A DNA stretch of 64,000 bases from a virus. The notes beneath the pieces were generated by a model. The model was not told the DNA's origin. It made no database searches and saw nothing but the letters and a program-made list of their open reading frames with translations. The stretch covers positions 186,001 to 250,000 of the IMG/VR virus record IMGVR_UViG_3300050821_009835; one strand, given 5' to 3'. Positions 52,485 through 64,000 of the stretch are shown here, one piece after another. Position 1 is the stretch's first letter. Every line of letters begins with the position of its first letter. A program made the position numbers and the translations under genes.

Positions 52485-52516
52485 AACGGGTCTCCAGTTA
52501 ATTGGAGACCCGTTTT
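52485..52516 (+). terminator. strong rho-independent terminator
   Basis: Perfect 12-bp stem AACGGGTCTCCA/TGGAGACCCGTT (52485-52496 with 52503-52514), GTTAAT loop, TTTT tail. Its right arm contains GGAG, which could serve as ribosome-binding site for a TTG at 52515. Confidence 0.85.
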
Positions 52517-52532
52517 GCCAGTATTAGATTCT

Positions 52533-53306
52533 ATGATTCAAAAAGCTACAGCCAAAGGTATGCGCCCGTATCAAGAAGATACTTCATTCATTTGTACTCA
52601 TCCTCACGGCGATCTTTTCGGTGTGTTTGACGGTCATGGTGGTCTAAATTGTTCTACATATCTTAGTGAACATTTTCCAGAAGCGTTCATTACACATTAC
52701 GAAGAAGTCTATGGTGATGCATACGAGGATTCTGTCGATGAGAAAGAAGTTTCTTTTTACAAATTTCTATCAAAAGCTGCTATGCGCAAAGCGTTTTATC
52801 AAATGGCAGATGAAACCAAACAGATGAGAAATGGTTCAACGGCCTCTGTGATTTGGGTGTTTCGTAAATTAAATTTTGCTGTTTGTGCGGTAATTGGCGA
52901 TTCTCCTATTATTGTTGGGACTGGTAAAAGGAGCTATCACTTAGGGCCGGATCACAATGCACGTTCCAACACAAAAGAGCGGGAAGCGGCTGAGAAACGT
53001 GGGGCATTTTGGGACGGTTATTATCTGTGCCATAGTTGGCATGGGGGCGGACTTCAAATGAGCCGCGCTTTGGGGGATTGTTCTCTACCGTTTCTTAGTC
53101 GTGTACCTCAAATCTATACTCAAAAGGTGCACGATTTTGTGTTAGTTGGAACGGATGGTATTCTAGACCCAGGGCATAAGAGTCATGATATGGTGCCGGG
53201 TATGGTAAAGGCAGTTCGTGAAGGAGCTACTGCGAATCAAATCGTCGCGACAGCACTCGCAGTTCCCACCGGGGACAACGCCACTTGTCTGATTTGGAGA
53301 CCATAA
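52533..53306 (+). CDS. PP2C-type protein serine/threonine phosphatase
   Basis: 257 residues from ATG 52533; in-frame TTG 52515 is an alternative start with GGAG in the terminator arm. All PP2C motifs are present in order: KGMRPYQEDTS, GVFDGHGG (metal-binding D33), GSTASVIWV, VIGDSP, DHNARSN, LQMSRALGD, FVLVGTDGILD and GDNATCLI. It removes phosphate from Ser/Thr using two metal ions. PP2C genes are unusual in phages; targets could be phosphorylated host defence or signalling proteins. It ends directly at the helicase start. Confidence 0.85.
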   Translation: MIQKATAKGMRPYQEDTSFICTHPHGDLFGVFDGHGGLNCSTYLSEHFPEAFITHYEEVYGDAYEDSVDEKEVSFYKFLSKAAMRKAFYQMADETKQMRNGSTASVIWVFRKLNFAVCAVIGDSPIIVGTGKRSYHLGPDHNARSNTKEREAAEKRGAFWDGYYLCHSWHGGGLQMSRALGDCSLPFLSRVPQIYTQKVHDFVLVGTDGILDPGHKSHDMVPGMVKAVREGATANQIVATALAVPTGDNATCLIWRP

Positions 53307-55226
53307 TTGCAGCTCAACGAGGAACAGCTTCTAGCTGTAGAACATTCCATTGGGAGCCCGGCAGTATTGGTAGCGGGTGCAGGTAGTGGTAAAACAAGAG
53401 TTCTTACTGAACGTGTTCGTTGGTTGATGAAGCAAGGCATTGCCCCTCGCCGGATTTGCGTTCTAACTTTTACTAACAAAGCTGCGGGGGAATTAGTCAA
53501 TCGTTTGGGTCTTGGGCCAGAAGTTCCTCGTGATCAGGTTCCCCGCGTTAGCACAATTCACTCTCTTGCTCTTAGTGCCATTCGTCGCAATCCTCAAGGT
53601 TTTGGCCTTTTGTCTCGTGTTTCCCCACTTGATGAAGGTGATGCGGGCAGTATGATTAAGAAAATCATCGATCGCTTAGAATTAGATGAAAATCAGTGGG
53701 CAATGTTGGAAGTGATAAGTTACCACCGTGCTCGTGGTCTTTGCTTTTCTAGTGACTATACAGATGAAATCCATAAAATCTCGGAAAAGGCGCACGGCGG
53801 TTATCATGCTATGGATGCTGGACGGCTTGCTATCTGGAAGGCATACGAGGCGGAGAAGAAAGCCAATTCCGTAGTTGACTTCGATGATATGGTACATCTA
53901 GTCGTTCATCGCGGTAAAATGGATAGCACCTGGCGCGGGAAACTTGAAAAGACCTTCGAGTTTTTATTGATGGATGAAGCACAGGATACCAACCCGATTC
54001 AATGGGCGTTTGTCAATTTATTAGTTGCACCAGACAATCCAAATCTATATGTTGTCGGTGACATGAATCAGAGCATCTACGGCTTTAATGGGGCTACCCC
54101 GGAACTCCTTAAAGAATACAGTGAGGGTTGGCGCGGTGTTGTTCCTAAACTTTACAAGATTCAACGCAATCATCGTTCTGTCCCCGAAATTGTTAATCTC
54201 GCGAATGCTACCTGCGCTAAAATGACCAATTCGATTCCACTGAAAATGGAATCCTGGCGAGGGATCAATAATGAACATGGTACCACCAAATTGATGAAAG
54301 CGTGCGAACCACGCGACATTGCTGTTCAGATAGCAACAGAAATTTACCATGATGCCAACCTTAAAAAGAATCCCATAGTCTATCGTGACAACGCTGTGTT
54401 AGTCCGTAGCGGTAAGACTCAAGTCCGGGATATAGAAGCTGAGTTGGTAAAGCGGCGCATCCCTTATGTGGTGCGCGGCGGCCTGTCCCTCCTTCAGACG
54501 GAAGAGGTTCGCGATTTGATGGCGTATATGAGGCTCATTGCAAACCCAAACGATTTCATGGCGCTCGTACGGGCTTCAGGTATTCCAAAGCGTGGCGTGG
54601 GGCCGAAGGCGCTAGAGGATATTCGTGATCGAGCCAAGCTACAGCACAGCAATGACTTGGTTGCTGCCAGCGCCAGCGACAAGAAATTGGGCGGTTTCGC
54701 TGCCATGATAAAGAGTCTTGGAGATTACCGAGATGATCCTTTCAAGGCGCTTCAAGAACTCATTCGTCTTCTTAATTATGGTCAGATCATTCAGGATAAG
54801 TACAAGCGTGAACCGGAGCGAGTACAGCAGAAATTGGAGAATATCAATCGTTTACAGATGATGTTTCAAATTCTCCTTGAGGAGAATGAAATGACCATCG
54901 AGGATCTGGTGTTCCAGTTGAGTATGAATAAACAATCTGAGCAATCAAATAAAGACGAAGGGAAGGTTGTCATTAGTACGATCCATTCTGCTAAAGGATT
55001 GGAATTTCGGCGCGTATACGTGACCAATTGTTACGAAGGCTCCCTTCCTCATAAATTTTCAATGGGATCCCCATCGGAAATTGAGGAGGAAAGGCGGCTT
55101 TTTTATGTGGCATGTACTAGGGCCAAGGACAACCTTACACTCTGCCTCCCAGCAATGATTCAACACGGTCCAAATACTACTGCTTTAACTCCCAGCAGAT
55201 TTCTATACGAAATTGGCGTTCACTGA
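53307..55226 (+). CDS. UvrD/PcrA-like superfamily 1 helicase
   Basis: 639 residues from TTG 53307, with GGAG seven bases upstream. Motifs: Q-motif LNEEQLLAV, Walker A AGAGSGKT at 23-30, Ia TFTNKAAGEL, TIHSLAL, Walker B LLMDEAQD, III VVGDMNQSIYGFNGA, IV NHRSVPEIV, V VISTIHSAKGLEF, VI RRLFYVACTRAKDN. It unwinds DNA 3' to 5' in repair or replication. Slightly shorter than UvrD (about 720), lacking the C-terminal tail. Likely the main unwinding enzyme in the window, as no DnaB-type helicase is present. Confidence 0.9.
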   Translation: MQLNEEQLLAVEHSIGSPAVLVAGAGSGKTRVLTERVRWLMKQGIAPRRICVLTFTNKAAGELVNRLGLGPEVPRDQVPRVSTIHSLALSAIRRNPQGFGLLSRVSPLDEGDAGSMIKKIIDRLELDENQWAMLEVISYHRARGLCFSSDYTDEIHKISEKAHGGYHAMDAGRLAIWKAYEAEKKANSVVDFDDMVHLVVHRGKMDSTWRGKLEKTFEFLLMDEAQDTNPIQWAFVNLLVAPDNPNLYVVGDMNQSIYGFNGATPELLKEYSEGWRGVVPKLYKIQRNHRSVPEIVNLANATCAKMTNSIPLKMESWRGINNEHGTTKLMKACEPRDIAVQIATEIYHDANLKKNPIVYRDNAVLVRSGKTQVRDIEAELVKRRIPYVVRGGLSLLQTEEVRDLMAYMRLIANPNDFMALVRASGIPKRGVGPKALEDIRDRAKLQHSNDLVAASASDKKLGGFAAMIKSLGDYRDDPFKALQELIRLLNYGQIIQDKYKREPERVQQKLENINRLQMMFQILLEENEMTIEDLVFQLSMNKQSEQSNKDEGKVVISTIHSAKGLEFRRVYVTNCYEGSLPHKFSMGSPSEIEEERRLFYVACTRAKDNLTLCLPAMIQHGPNTTALTPSRFLYEIGVH

Positions 55227-55414: not shown

Positions 55415-56386
55415 TTGAATAAGCCATCTTGGGGCGTAATCGTTGGCCGTTTTCAAGTGCACGAACTCCATGAAGGTCACATGGACTTATTCCGCGCCGT
55501 CATGGGACGCCATAATCGTGTAATTGTTTTTGTGGGTAAGTCTCCGAATGGAATGACCAAACGTAACCCGCTAGATTTCGTTACTCGCAAGGCGATGATT
55601 CAAGCAAAGTTCCCTAATTTTACAGTTCTTCCTTTGATTGATTGTATGACAGACGAGGCGTGGTCTGATTCTCTGGACGCCAAAATCCGAGAGGTTGTTG
55701 ACTATGGCGACGTTACTCTGTATGGGGGCCGTGACAGTTTCGTGCCTCATTACCACGGTGCCTATCCTCCTGTTGAACTCGCTTTGCCTACCACGGAGCA
55801 CATCAAAGGCGAAGACATTCGGGCAAAGTTGACAAATACGATCATCGAGTCCGCTGATTTTCGCGCTGGCGCTATTTACTCCGCGATGAATCAGTGGCCC
55901 AAAGCCATTACTTGCGTGGATGTAGTCATGTATCACTACTCTTGGTCAGATGTGAATAAAAACAATGACGACATGGAGTTCCTTCTCTGCAAGAAATACG
56001 GTGAGCCTGGTTGGCGTTTCGTGGGTGGCCACACTAAACCGATAACTGAGACTTTTGAACAGGATGCCAAAGATGAAGCTAGGGAAGAAGTGGGCCAATA
56101 TCTAACCAAAATGGAGTATATTGGCAGCTGTTATGTTCCCGACTGGCGCTGGGCGGCTGAGCAGGATAAAGTCAAGACGCTCGTGTTCGCCTCCGAGACT
56201 ATGACTCTATCCGCTGCAGCAAAGGACGACATTTCTGAAGCGAAATGGTTTTCTATTCGTGAACTGAAAGAGGGGCTCCTCAACCCGGTTCATCACCCGA
56301 TATTAAAGCTCGTACAAGAAGGATTCAGAAAGGAATTCAAACTATATGCCGCGCCCATTTCAACCGCGTCCGTTGCACAAGACTGA
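55415..56386 (+). CDS. nadM: bifunctional NMN adenylyltransferase / Nudix (NadM-type)
   Basis: 323 residues from TTG 55415 (GGAGG six bases before). Residues ~5-180: NMN adenylyltransferase with GRFQ at 11-14 and the nucleotide-binding H19-x-G-H22, later YGGRDSF. It makes NAD+ from NMN and ATP. Residues ~190-323: Nudix domain with a box GGHTKPITETFEQDAKDEA then REEVG; family members hydrolyse ADP-ribose. The same fusion occurs in cyanobacterial and vibriophage proteins. It overlaps the next gene by 41 bases, and together they make NAD+ from nicotinamide. Confidence 0.9.
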   Translation: MNKPSWGVIVGRFQVHELHEGHMDLFRAVMGRHNRVIVFVGKSPNGMTKRNPLDFVTRKAMIQAKFPNFTVLPLIDCMTDEAWSDSLDAKIREVVDYGDVTLYGGRDSFVPHYHGAYPPVELALPTTEHIKGEDIRAKLTNTIIESADFRAGAIYSAMNQWPKAITCVDVVMYHYSWSDVNKNNDDMEFLLCKKYGEPGWRFVGGHTKPITETFEQDAKDEAREEVGQYLTKMEYIGSCYVPDWRWAAEQDKVKTLVFASETMTLSAAAKDDISEAKWFSIRELKEGLLNPVHHPILKLVQEGFRKEFKLYAAPISTASVAQD

Positions 56387-57776
56387 CAGCTATAAGGTTG
56401 GTCACTGGAGATTCATTGTCCCGGGAACTACGGAGATGCTCTACTACTACGAAGCTCGTGGCGGCGAGTATCCATACACTGTACTATTTGATCTCCAAGG
56501 AAACATTCAACGCAACATCGAAGGTCGTTTCGCCACTCTAACTGATGTTGAGGAGGCAGAATTTAAGGCGGGTCTCCATTTTGGCACGGATCGTGCTTTC
56601 AATAAAGAGGGCTGGCGCCACGTCATCAACAAGCATGGCGGTCACCTACCTTTGGATATCCGCGCTGTGAAAGAAGGCATTCCTGTAGAAGTGAAGAACG
56701 TTATGTGGACAATGAAGAACTCATGCCCTGATTGTGCTTGGGTTCCTGGTTGGACAGAAACAATTCTGGAGCATACCTGGTACGGCTCCGGCGTTGTCAC
56801 CAAATCTCGGTATTCCAAAGAAATGATTGCTGAATTTCTTTCGGGTACAGCAGATGATTTTTCTACTTTGCCTTTTCAGCTGCATGACTTCGGTGGTCGC
56901 GGCGTCACTTGTGATCTACAAATGGGCATCGGGGCAGCGGCTCATTTAGTCAATTTCCAAGGCACTGATACATTGCCTGGTCTAGACTACATTGAGCAGT
57001 TTTATGGGTTTGGAATCGAAAACGAAATGCCCGGCTTTTCTGTATTCGCTACAGAGCATTCTGTCACTACAATGTGGAAACGGGAGTATGAATCCCAGTT
57101 TGTAGAGAACGCTTTGAATGAGGTTCCGTCGGGAATTCTTTCTTTGGTTGGAGATAGCTATGATATCTTCAACTTCACGGCTAATATCATCGGCGGGACT
57201 TACCGCGAACGCATTCGCAATCGAGATGGTAAGGTTGTTGTTCGCCCCGACTCAGGTGATTCAGTTGCAGTAACACTTCGAGTACTTGACATTTTGGCAG
57301 AGAAATTTGGCATTCGTGAGAATGACAAAGGTTACAAGGTTCTCCCGCCCTGTGTAGGTGTGCTGTGGGGAGATGGCATTGATCACTATGGCATTCGAAA
57401 AATTTTGCAGGCCATGAAGGACGCCAAGTGGTCCGCATCTAACATTGTCTTCGGTATGGGCGGAGGGTTGCTTCAGAAGATTAACCGCGATACGCAGAAG
57501 GTTGCTATTAAATGCTGTAATGCGGTAGTCAACGGCGGCCAAGTTGAGATTTGGAAAGACCCCGTTACTGACCCAGGTAAGGCTTCTAAGCGAGGACGCT
57601 TGGCACTTCTGGAAGATTCGAATGACCAATATCGCACGGTGCAATACAAGGATGAAAGGGCGGGTTGCCCATTTGATCTCCTTGAGCCAGTTTTTCTTAA
57701 TGGTGAATTATTAAGATTTCAGAAGTTCCCGGAGATTCGTAAGCTGGCGGAGGTTGTTCTTCCTGTTTACGTATAG
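56346..57776 (+). CDS. nadV: nicotinamide phosphoribosyltransferase (NadV/NAMPT)
   Basis: 476 residues, near the family's usual ~480. Motifs: HKTDSYKVGHW at the N-terminus, LHDFGGRGV, the ATEHSVTTMW active-site histidine, GDSYDIFNF, RPDSGDS for phosphate binding and FGMGGGLLQKINRDT. It joins nicotinamide with PRPP to give NMN, which the preceding enzyme turns into NAD+. This two-enzyme route can restore NAD+ after host NAD-depleting defences (NARP2-type). It begins within the previous gene. Confidence 0.92.
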   Translation: MPRPFQPRPLHKTDSYKVGHWRFIVPGTTEMLYYYEARGGEYPYTVLFDLQGNIQRNIEGRFATLTDVEEAEFKAGLHFGTDRAFNKEGWRHVINKHGGHLPLDIRAVKEGIPVEVKNVMWTMKNSCPDCAWVPGWTETILEHTWYGSGVVTKSRYSKEMIAEFLSGTADDFSTLPFQLHDFGGRGVTCDLQMGIGAAAHLVNFQGTDTLPGLDYIEQFYGFGIENEMPGFSVFATEHSVTTMWKREYESQFVENALNEVPSGILSLVGDSYDIFNFTANIIGGTYRERIRNRDGKVVVRPDSGDSVAVTLRVLDILAEKFGIRENDKGYKVLPPCVGVLWGDGIDHYGIRKILQAMKDAKWSASNIVFGMGGGLLQKINRDTQKVAIKCCNAVVNGGQVEIWKDPVTDPGKASKRGRLALLEDSNDQYRTVQYKDERAGCPFDLLEPVFLNGELLRFQKFPEIRKLAEVVLPVYV

Positions 57777-60403: not shown

Positions 60404-61330
60404 ATGGTAACTCTTACTAATGGGAAGACCCTCCAAGCGGGGGATCTTGATATCTGCGTTCGAGGTGCAGACGGATCCATGATCGATCCCGCAGCGATTA
60501 CTTACAGCATCTTCCAAATTGATAAGCAGATTCCCGTTCGCCCCACTCTAGCATACTCTTACGACCAGATGCAGCCGGACAAACTATCATCGCATTCGGT
60601 AAACCCTGAATCCACATTGGTTTACGGGCCAATGCAAGTTCCCACTCGCTCTTCGCAGGGATGTTACTATGTTCCTATCACTGTCCCAACAACATGGCAT
60701 GGTGTCTTTCGTCTTGTCTGGTATCTGACGCAGTATGCAGGTGGTCAGCAGAACATGGTTCATGAAGAATTCGCGGTTGAAAATGTTGACCCAACTTCCA
60801 TGAGTTTTGAGGCTCCCTCCGTCCAGATGGCAAAGGCTCCGCGCACTACTCACAAATACACGAAAGCGATTATGTATGTGCGGGAACTACTTTCAGATGA
60901 TAACCCGGATCGAAACTATCACTTTCGTCCCCCAACTCCGAGTAAGGTGGTTGCGGGTTATACGACTCGTGTGGGGTATATCTGGACGGATCAGACGATT
61001 ATTCGTATGTTGGAGATGTCGATACAGGACTTGAATACGTGGAATCCAATGAACTTAACAGCCTACACGTTGGATACTCTTCCTTTAAATTGGAGTTCAG
61101 CAGCGGCAACAGGTGCAGCGGCGAAGTGTTTGAATCGGGAAGGCGCTCGTTGGGCGGCGGATGAATTCAGTTTTTCGTTGAACGGTGTCAGTTTGGATAT
61201 CAATAAGGCTGCACTCTATCAGGGAATGGGTGCTCAGTACCGGGCAGAATTTTCAGAAATGGCCCCGTTAGTCACAGCTAACCGCCCTGGATCCGTGGGT
61301 TTACGTCAGCAACGCTGGCTTTTGGGATGA
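60404..61330 (+). CDS. virion structural protein (head/neck candidate)
   Basis: 308 residues with AGGAG upstream. N-terminal ~130 residues form a beta-sandwich (LQAGDLDICVRGADGS, HGVFRLVWYLTQYA), the rest is helical with YVRELLSDDNPDRNYHFRPP and ends RPGSVGLRQQRWLLG. The pattern recalls neck or head-completion proteins, but no family is identified. Confidence 0.5.
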   Translation: MVTLTNGKTLQAGDLDICVRGADGSMIDPAAITYSIFQIDKQIPVRPTLAYSYDQMQPDKLSSHSVNPESTLVYGPMQVPTRSSQGCYYVPITVPTTWHGVFRLVWYLTQYAGGQQNMVHEEFAVENVDPTSMSFEAPSVQMAKAPRTTHKYTKAIMYVRELLSDDNPDRNYHFRPPTPSKVVAGYTTRVGYIWTDQTIIRMLEMSIQDLNTWNPMNLTAYTLDTLPLNWSSAAATGAAAKCLNREGARWAADEFSFSLNGVSLDINKAALYQGMGAQYRAEFSEMAPLVTANRPGSVGLRQQRWLLG

Positions 61331-63453: not shown

Positions 63454-63519
63454 GGCGATTAAGACCATACCTATCAATGCGATACTCTCGAGTATGAGTC
63501 TTTCTGTCTTGTAAGTCAT
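63436..63519 (-). CDS. 27-residue single-pass membrane peptide
   Basis: ATG 63519 overlaps the stop of the PARP-like gene as TAATG, so it is probably translated by reinitiation. Reads MTYKTERLILESIALIGMVL and ends in LLAWR: one hydrophobic helix. It overlaps the end of the opposing nuclease gene. Function unknown; it may anchor or accompany the PARP-like protein. Confidence 0.45.
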   Translation of the reverse strand: MTYKTERLILESIALIGMVLIALLAWR

Positions 63520-64000
63520 TAGTTGAATTCGACCAGATAGCGGATATTCGCTTGCGACGTACGATAGACAATTTGCTCGTCGTTGATTACGCCAGAGCGA
63601 CCCGGCTTGGCCCAGCAAGAATCATAACCGAGGCGTTTGCCGTTGCCGCTACCGCTCGGGATGTACTCCTTGCCCATCGCCACGTCAACCATGAACATGT
63701 AGCAGTTCTTGTCACGCGACCCGCCGTCCCAGTAGCCGTATGCATAATTTAAACTTTTTGTGCTCATCGCGGAGAAGTAGAGACCAGTCCCATACATCGC
63801 CCCTGTGGTTTGAACCGTGCTCAATTCGGTGGGCAAAACAAATCCACGTTTCAAAATCGAAAGCACATTGAACATGCGAGTGCCATGCCACAAAGATTTG
63901 ATGTTACCAACCTTCTTACCGTCAGCATTAAAGGCCGCTTCCATGTGCGGGATGCGAACTTCGTATACACGAACCGGGCGAAGATGTGAGCACTCGTGAC
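63519..64000 (-). CDS. PARP-like ADP-ribosyltransferase, C-terminal part
   Basis: The frame is open to the window edge (at least 160 codons), so the N-terminus is missing; the first ATG inside is at 63944. Counting from that ATG: the catalytic histidine in LWHGT (H20), MYGTGLYFSAM, the K-S-L-N-Y-A-Y stretch, YMFMVDVAMGKEY, and the glutamate block NDEQIVYRTSQANIRYLVEF, which mirrors the NEYIVYD..Q.N..YLL end of PARP1. So the H-Y-E triad looks intact. It transfers ADP-ribose from NAD+ to protein or nucleic acid. NAD-salvage genes lie 6 kb away. Target unknown. Confidence 0.85.
   Translation of the reverse strand, partial: HECSHLRPVRVYEVRIPHMEAAFNADGKKVGNIKSLWHGTRMFNVLSILKRGFVLPTELSTVQTTGAMYGTGLYFSAMSTKSLNYAYGYWDGGSRDKNCYMFMVDVAMGKEYIPSGSGNGKRLGYDSCWAKPGRSGVINDEQIVYRTSQANIRYLVEFN

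Follow-up and report, generated by a model that had tools for sequence, protein, structure and literature searches.

The window, a stretch of 64,000 nucleotides covering positions 186001-250000 of a 264,912-base virus record, contains the 3' part of a phage PARP gene that is complete in the record. Its product has the WGR-helical-ART architecture of the clade 1 enzymes (PARP1/2/3-like) and most probably works as a DNA-break-triggered ADP-ribosyltransferase. PARPs are used by human cells to flag broken DNA, with NAD+ as the fuel. The open reading frame (63519-63998, minus strand) is open at the edge of the window, and the gene runs a further 877 bases to record position 250877. The whole gene (record 249519-250877, minus strand) begins with an ATG and encodes 452 residues with no internal stops. 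The part that lies past the edge encodes the WGR and helical domains, and these were revealed when the N-terminus was obtained by extending the contig, as the preliminary description of this DNA had advised. That description had also placed the gene within a phage genome, which is correct; the record is that of a large tailed phage, with matches to tail sheath, portal, DNA polymerase and terminase. The window further contains five tRNA genes. The features discussed below are collected in the table.

Table. Positions in the window of the PARP gene and of the genes discussed with it.
Feature	Positions	Strand	Remarks
PP2C-type protein phosphatase	52515..53306		directly upstream of the NadM-NadV pair, with the helicase
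UvrD/Rep-type helicase	53307..55226		directly upstream of the NadM-NadV pair, with the phosphatase
NadM-like protein	55415..56386	+	weak nucleotidyltransferase N-terminus and clear Nudix domain; 41-base overlap with nadV
NadV/NAMPT-like nicotinamide phosphoribosyltransferase	56346..57776	+	NAMPT_N 1e-20, NAPRTase 3e-43
Conserved late-region gene, left bound of variable slot	60404..61330	+	46% identical homologue in L088
Homing-endonuclease-like ORF, 675 aa	61426..63453	+	DUF7487, PHROG homing endonuclease; convergent with the PARP gene, shares the variable slot
PARP gene, 3' part	63519..64000	-	residues 293-452 of 452, C-terminal ART part including H331, Y367 and E434

From N- to C-terminus the protein comprises a WGR domain, a helical domain of regulatory-like character and a PARP catalytic domain. 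The last of these had been recognized previously from the 3' part alone, and is borne out by the Pfam PARP model (PF00644), which matches residues 282-404 of the full protein (2.2e-20, 73.5 bits, cut-off 26.7; 2.6e-19 in the record-level search). The Pfam WGR model matches residues 20-88 when the single protein is searched (0.0013), with 19.2 bits, just below the cut-off of 22. In the record-level search the WGR scores 21.4 bits alone and 23.2 bits with its neighbours in the frame, which is above the cut-off. The Pfam PARP regulatory (PARP_reg) model gives no match in the window PARP, an absence that is reported for many bacterial PARPs too (PMC5966428). The helical-domain motif LLDQL (L234, D235) lines up with MLDNL of PARP1. 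Over most of its length the protein is matched by PHROG 23333 (residues 52-451, 9e-49), a family labelled 'polymerase', and a phmmer search against solved structures returns chains of PARP3, PARP1 and PARP2. A profile built from 11 phage PARPs gives a single unbroken alignment to human PARP2 and PARP1 that runs from the WGR to the catalytic Glu (E ~1e-38).

The H-Y-E triad is formed by H331 in LWHGTR, Y367 in GTGLYFS and E434 in NDEQIVY, each aligned with its counterpart in human PARP1 and PARP2. The earlier statement that the triad positions are kept holds across a 68-sequence alignment of phage, bacterial and human PARPs, with His and Glu found in 68/68 and Tyr in 66/68. Two divergent viral PARP-like proteins (L059 and L060) have an Ile aligned to the triad Tyr. 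The match and the triad together are far beyond chance, and confirm that the PARP observation is real. In the WGR, which contains W57-G58-R59, both G58 and R59 are kept in 68/68 sequences. The invariant WGR residues of the family (N28, K29, G58, R59, K84 and Y93) resemble the patches of Clostridioides difficile PARP that have been linked to DNA-dependent activation (PMC5966428). The combination of WGR and helical domains suggests a PARP1/2/3-like enzyme that is activated by DNA ends, as opposed to a bare transferase.

Structural comparison was based on an AlphaFold2 model of a phage homologue (L003) that is 66% identical to the window protein, with 52 relatives as input. The model has a mean pLDDT of 86.9 and a pTM of 0.80, and contains the WGR strands, helices at residues 112-261 and the ART fold. 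Foldseek ranks structures of PARP1 and PARP2 bound to DNA breaks highest (E 3.6e-23 to 7e-21). Aligning the model with VIA-align onto PARP1 bound to a DNA double-strand break (4dqy_C) gives a Z of 25.7 and an rmsd of 4.0 for 383 residues, spanning model residues 7-458. Against the catalytic domains of PARP1 and PARP2 the Z is about 25, and model residues 128-458 align with PARP1 663-1008. The structure comparison that had been proposed as a check thus finds the PARP fold and, since the match extends along the whole length, the three parts (WGR, helical domain and ART) occur together in a PARP1/2/3-like arrangement. From this conserved architecture we infer that the modelled helical domain, present as in clade 1 PARPs, is likely to be autoinhibitory.

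These features suggest how the enzyme may work. The WGR would bind a DNA end or nick, and this binding would loosen the autoinhibiting helical domain. The ART domain could then, through H331, Y367 and E434, use NAD+ to attach ADP-ribose to itself and to neighbouring proteins or DNA ends; the earlier remark that an active enzyme would consume NAD+ is right as a conditional. During lytic infection broken host and phage DNA would provide the activator, and DNA-associated proteins of the host or phage would be the likely acceptors. Phage ARTs are usually read as host-takeover enzymes, and it is conceivable but unlikely that the protein is one of these. It would then mono-ADP-ribosylate host proteins such as RNA polymerase in the manner of T4 Alt, ModA and ModB, with the WGR as a DNA tether only. 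A survey has proposed that phage PARPs act as other ARTs do, with longer chains transferred (PMC7824862), and the named phage relatives lie amid metabolic genes (tRNA nucleotidyltransferase, DNA ligase, anaerobic ribonucleotide reductase, T4-type RNA ligase). However, the conserved helical domain and the DNA-contact residues of the WGR fit DNA-triggered control better than a constitutive transferase, and the triad Glu is of the type seen in polymer-forming PARPs.

The PARP gene lies on the strand opposite to its late-region neighbours and adjoins the homing-endonuclease-like ORF. In L088, a contig from a related phage, the flanking genes have homologues in matching order, but the intervening slot lacks a PARP and is filled by other genes. 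This marks the PARP as an accessory gene at a variable site among the late structural genes. A chimeric contig is unlikely, as L088 has homologues of the late genes on both sides of the PARP and preserves their order. A search for a PARP promoter or terminator produced no convincing candidate. Three features would suit a passenger without function in this phage: the gene stands alone on its strand next to the homing-endonuclease-like ORF, its slot is occupied by other genes in L088, and no promoter was recognized. Such a passenger is nevertheless extremely improbable given the full-length reading frame, the intact triad and the low dN/dS of the family. Among relatives dN/dS is 0.06-0.18, with dS often close to saturation, which shows that the family is under purifying selection. 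One bacterial PARP frame, in Hyella patelloides (L079), is interrupted as extracted and may represent a pseudogene or a sequencing error.

The genes that accompany PARPs vary between loci. A fixed partner gene was rejected, as no neighbour is common to all PARP loci. The recurrent neighbours are an AbrB-like regulator (18 loci), a T4-type RNA ligase (8), a Nudix-like gene (5) and a ligase-like gene (3). The first, a small protein whose C-terminus is AbrB-like, is encoded downstream of the PARP in 18 phage loci (L025-L027, L031, L032, L034, L037, L038, L041, L042, L046-L049, L061 and L064-L066; for example L026 5566-6228) and not beside the window PARP; the Pfam match, examined for L026, is weak. 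An RNA ligase resembling T4 Rnl1 recurs upstream of the PARP in one phage clade (L017-L024, L053), in which genes judged by eye to be dNMP kinase-like and non-specific endonuclease-like also recur, hinting at a nucleic-acid repair setting. A gene that by eye resembles an ATP-dependent DNA ligase is found close downstream of the PARP in three loci (L013 2798-3946, L046 5770-6960 and L047 5942-7081), and the L013 protein has a WGR-like look over residues 1-80.

Homologues are widespread. In a public phage collection 15 records match the PARP, six of which cover most of the protein (Xanthomonas phage XacN1, Stenotrophomonas phages CM1 and RAS14, and Klebsiella phages 05F01, FBKp34 and KP13-16). 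Several of these phage relatives, among them XacN1 and FBKp34, carry the annotation poly(ADP-ribose) polymerase, and the annotation of FBKp34 names each of the three domains. In IMG/VR 53 loci were found, many on large-phage contigs, and in bacterial genomes 15. PARPs of Aeromonas phage Aeh1 and Cellulophaga phage phi4:1 were listed in 2014 (PMC4245714), jumbo-phage PARPs including XacN1 BBA65562.1 were described in 2021 (PMC7824862), and by 2022 PARPs were among the most frequent viral ADP-ribosyltransferase families (PMC9503650). With these reports and the loci counted here, the view that PARP-family enzymes are rarely reported in phages was overstated. The architecture is already known from named phages, and phage PARPs from published surveys; the window PARP adds a further example to an established kind. 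A literature search, with most subscription papers outside its scope, found no paper that describes an experimental test of a phage PARP.

In a quick tree, which has weakly supported deep forks and rows gathered with a phage-biased query, the window PARP is placed in a starred phage clade; phage and bacterial rows are intermixed and the human pair stands apart. The term 'eukaryote-type', as used in the preliminary description, consequently describes the fold and architecture correctly but not the origin, since the protein groups with phage and bacterial PARPs and not with those of human. That the gene came from a eukaryote or, recently, from a host is likewise unsupported, given its position inside a phage clade among phage and bacterial rows. 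The intermixing suggests that phages and bacteria may exchange the PARP family.

The NadV and NadM-like genes lie 6-8 kb from the PARP gene, within the window. The NadV assignment is supported by the NCBIfam model PRK09198 (494 bits, cut-off 405). The best NCBIfam match of the NadM-like protein has a value of 1.3e-8, far under the equivalog cut-off. NadV is present in 21/40 other PARP-bearing records, and among PARP-bearing phage records of at least 180 kb in 14/22, or 15/23 when the record analysed here is included. The published frequency of NadV in jumbo phages is 33% (PMC9503650); 15/23 against this value gives a binomial probability of 0.0016, the records being related and the baseline coming from another data set. 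For these two reasons the association of PARP with NadV in large phages is suggestive only; a control sample based on thymidylate synthase was too small. NadM-like matches occur at most 2-3 kb from NadV in three records (G015, G004 and G007), those in G004 and G007 being weak.

PARP frees nicotinamide and NadV uses it, which makes a loop possible in which the freed nicotinamide could go back to NAD+ via the phage NadV and NadM-like enzymes. In its full form such a closed loop, with a DNA-break-triggered PARP burning NAD+ and NadV and NadM remaking it so that PARylation is sustained through infection, is a tentative idea and unlikely. No earlier proposal of an NAD+ loop with a phage PARP was found in the literature search. 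Phage NadV-NadM salvage has been proposed or shown to counter NAD+-depleting defences (PMC9503650; for NARP1 and NARP2, PMC11984713; for NARP1, PMC12774641). The window resembles NARP2 in pairing a NadV that has NAMPT_N with a neighbouring gene for a putative NadM-like adenylyltransferase-Nudix protein. The role of the phage pathway in the literature is that of a counter to NAD+-depleting defences, whereas its connection to a PARP is one that we infer here.

No gene for a Macro domain, ADP-ribosylglycohydrolase or microbial PARG was found in the phage's own record, which may be incomplete, so that none of the usual erasers appears to be phage-borne. Macro domains are present in 19/41 PARP-bearing records, a proportion near the published jumbo-phage figure of 56%, and thus there is no clear association of Macro with PARP. 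The same phage has a NADAR gene (record G000:C1:137170-137550, minus strand, 1.5e-21); derivatives of ADP-ribose are the supposed substrates of NADAR proteins. NadV and NadM-like genes without a detected eraser would also be compatible with an NAD+-draining effector, in which DNA breaks caused by a competing phage or a nuclease defence lead to NAD+ depletion directed against superinfecting phages or host responses, and the phage's own NadV and NadM restore the pool. NAD+ restoration by NARP1 and NARP2 is an established counter-defence (PMC11984713; PMC12774641). Such an effector is, however, very unlikely, as depleting NAD+ in the cell that it infects would be detrimental to the phage without a separation in time, and NadV is common enough in jumbo phages generally, at the published 33% (PMC9503650), for its presence to need no PARP.

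The window and the gene that leaves it thus bring together a complete PARP with a full DNA-break-sensing architecture and genes for remaking NAD+. This makes two questions testable, namely whether phages use DNA-triggered PARylation and whether it is paid for by their own NAD+ salvage, in a family that 53 IMG/VR loci show to be wide.

Of the known PARPs, those of XacN1 (BBA65562.1), RAS14/CM1, FBKp34 (QQV91759.1), 05F01 and KP13-16 are of similar length and share the WGR-helical-ART order, with 31-34% identity (tblastn) over 97-98% of the query. Their gene neighbourhoods are unlike that of the window PARP, which together with its homologue L003 has an extra segment of ~13 residues in the WGR compared with the XacN1, Stenotrophomonas and Klebsiella phage proteins. 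The PARP of Cellulophaga phages phi17:2 and phi4:1 has the catalytic domain, a WGR-like start and the triad in common with the window PARP, but sits on a very long branch, with 25% identity and a shorter helical part. Bacterial PARPs (Herpetosiphon, C. difficile CD160 and others, L067-L081) have the same architecture, triad and size; they are encoded on chromosomes or plasmids, and the best identity to the window PARP is 42%. The Herpetosiphon enzyme, in which the triad is conserved, needs DNA and makes long PAR (cited in PMC4245714). Human PARP1, PARP2 and PARP3 share the WGR-helical-ART order, the H-Y-E triad and the fold, with 25-28% identity in the WGR and ART and 16-18% in the helical domain. 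Unlike them, the window PARP is without zinc fingers, BRCT and a basic N-terminus, and the loop that precedes its catalytic Glu is shorter.
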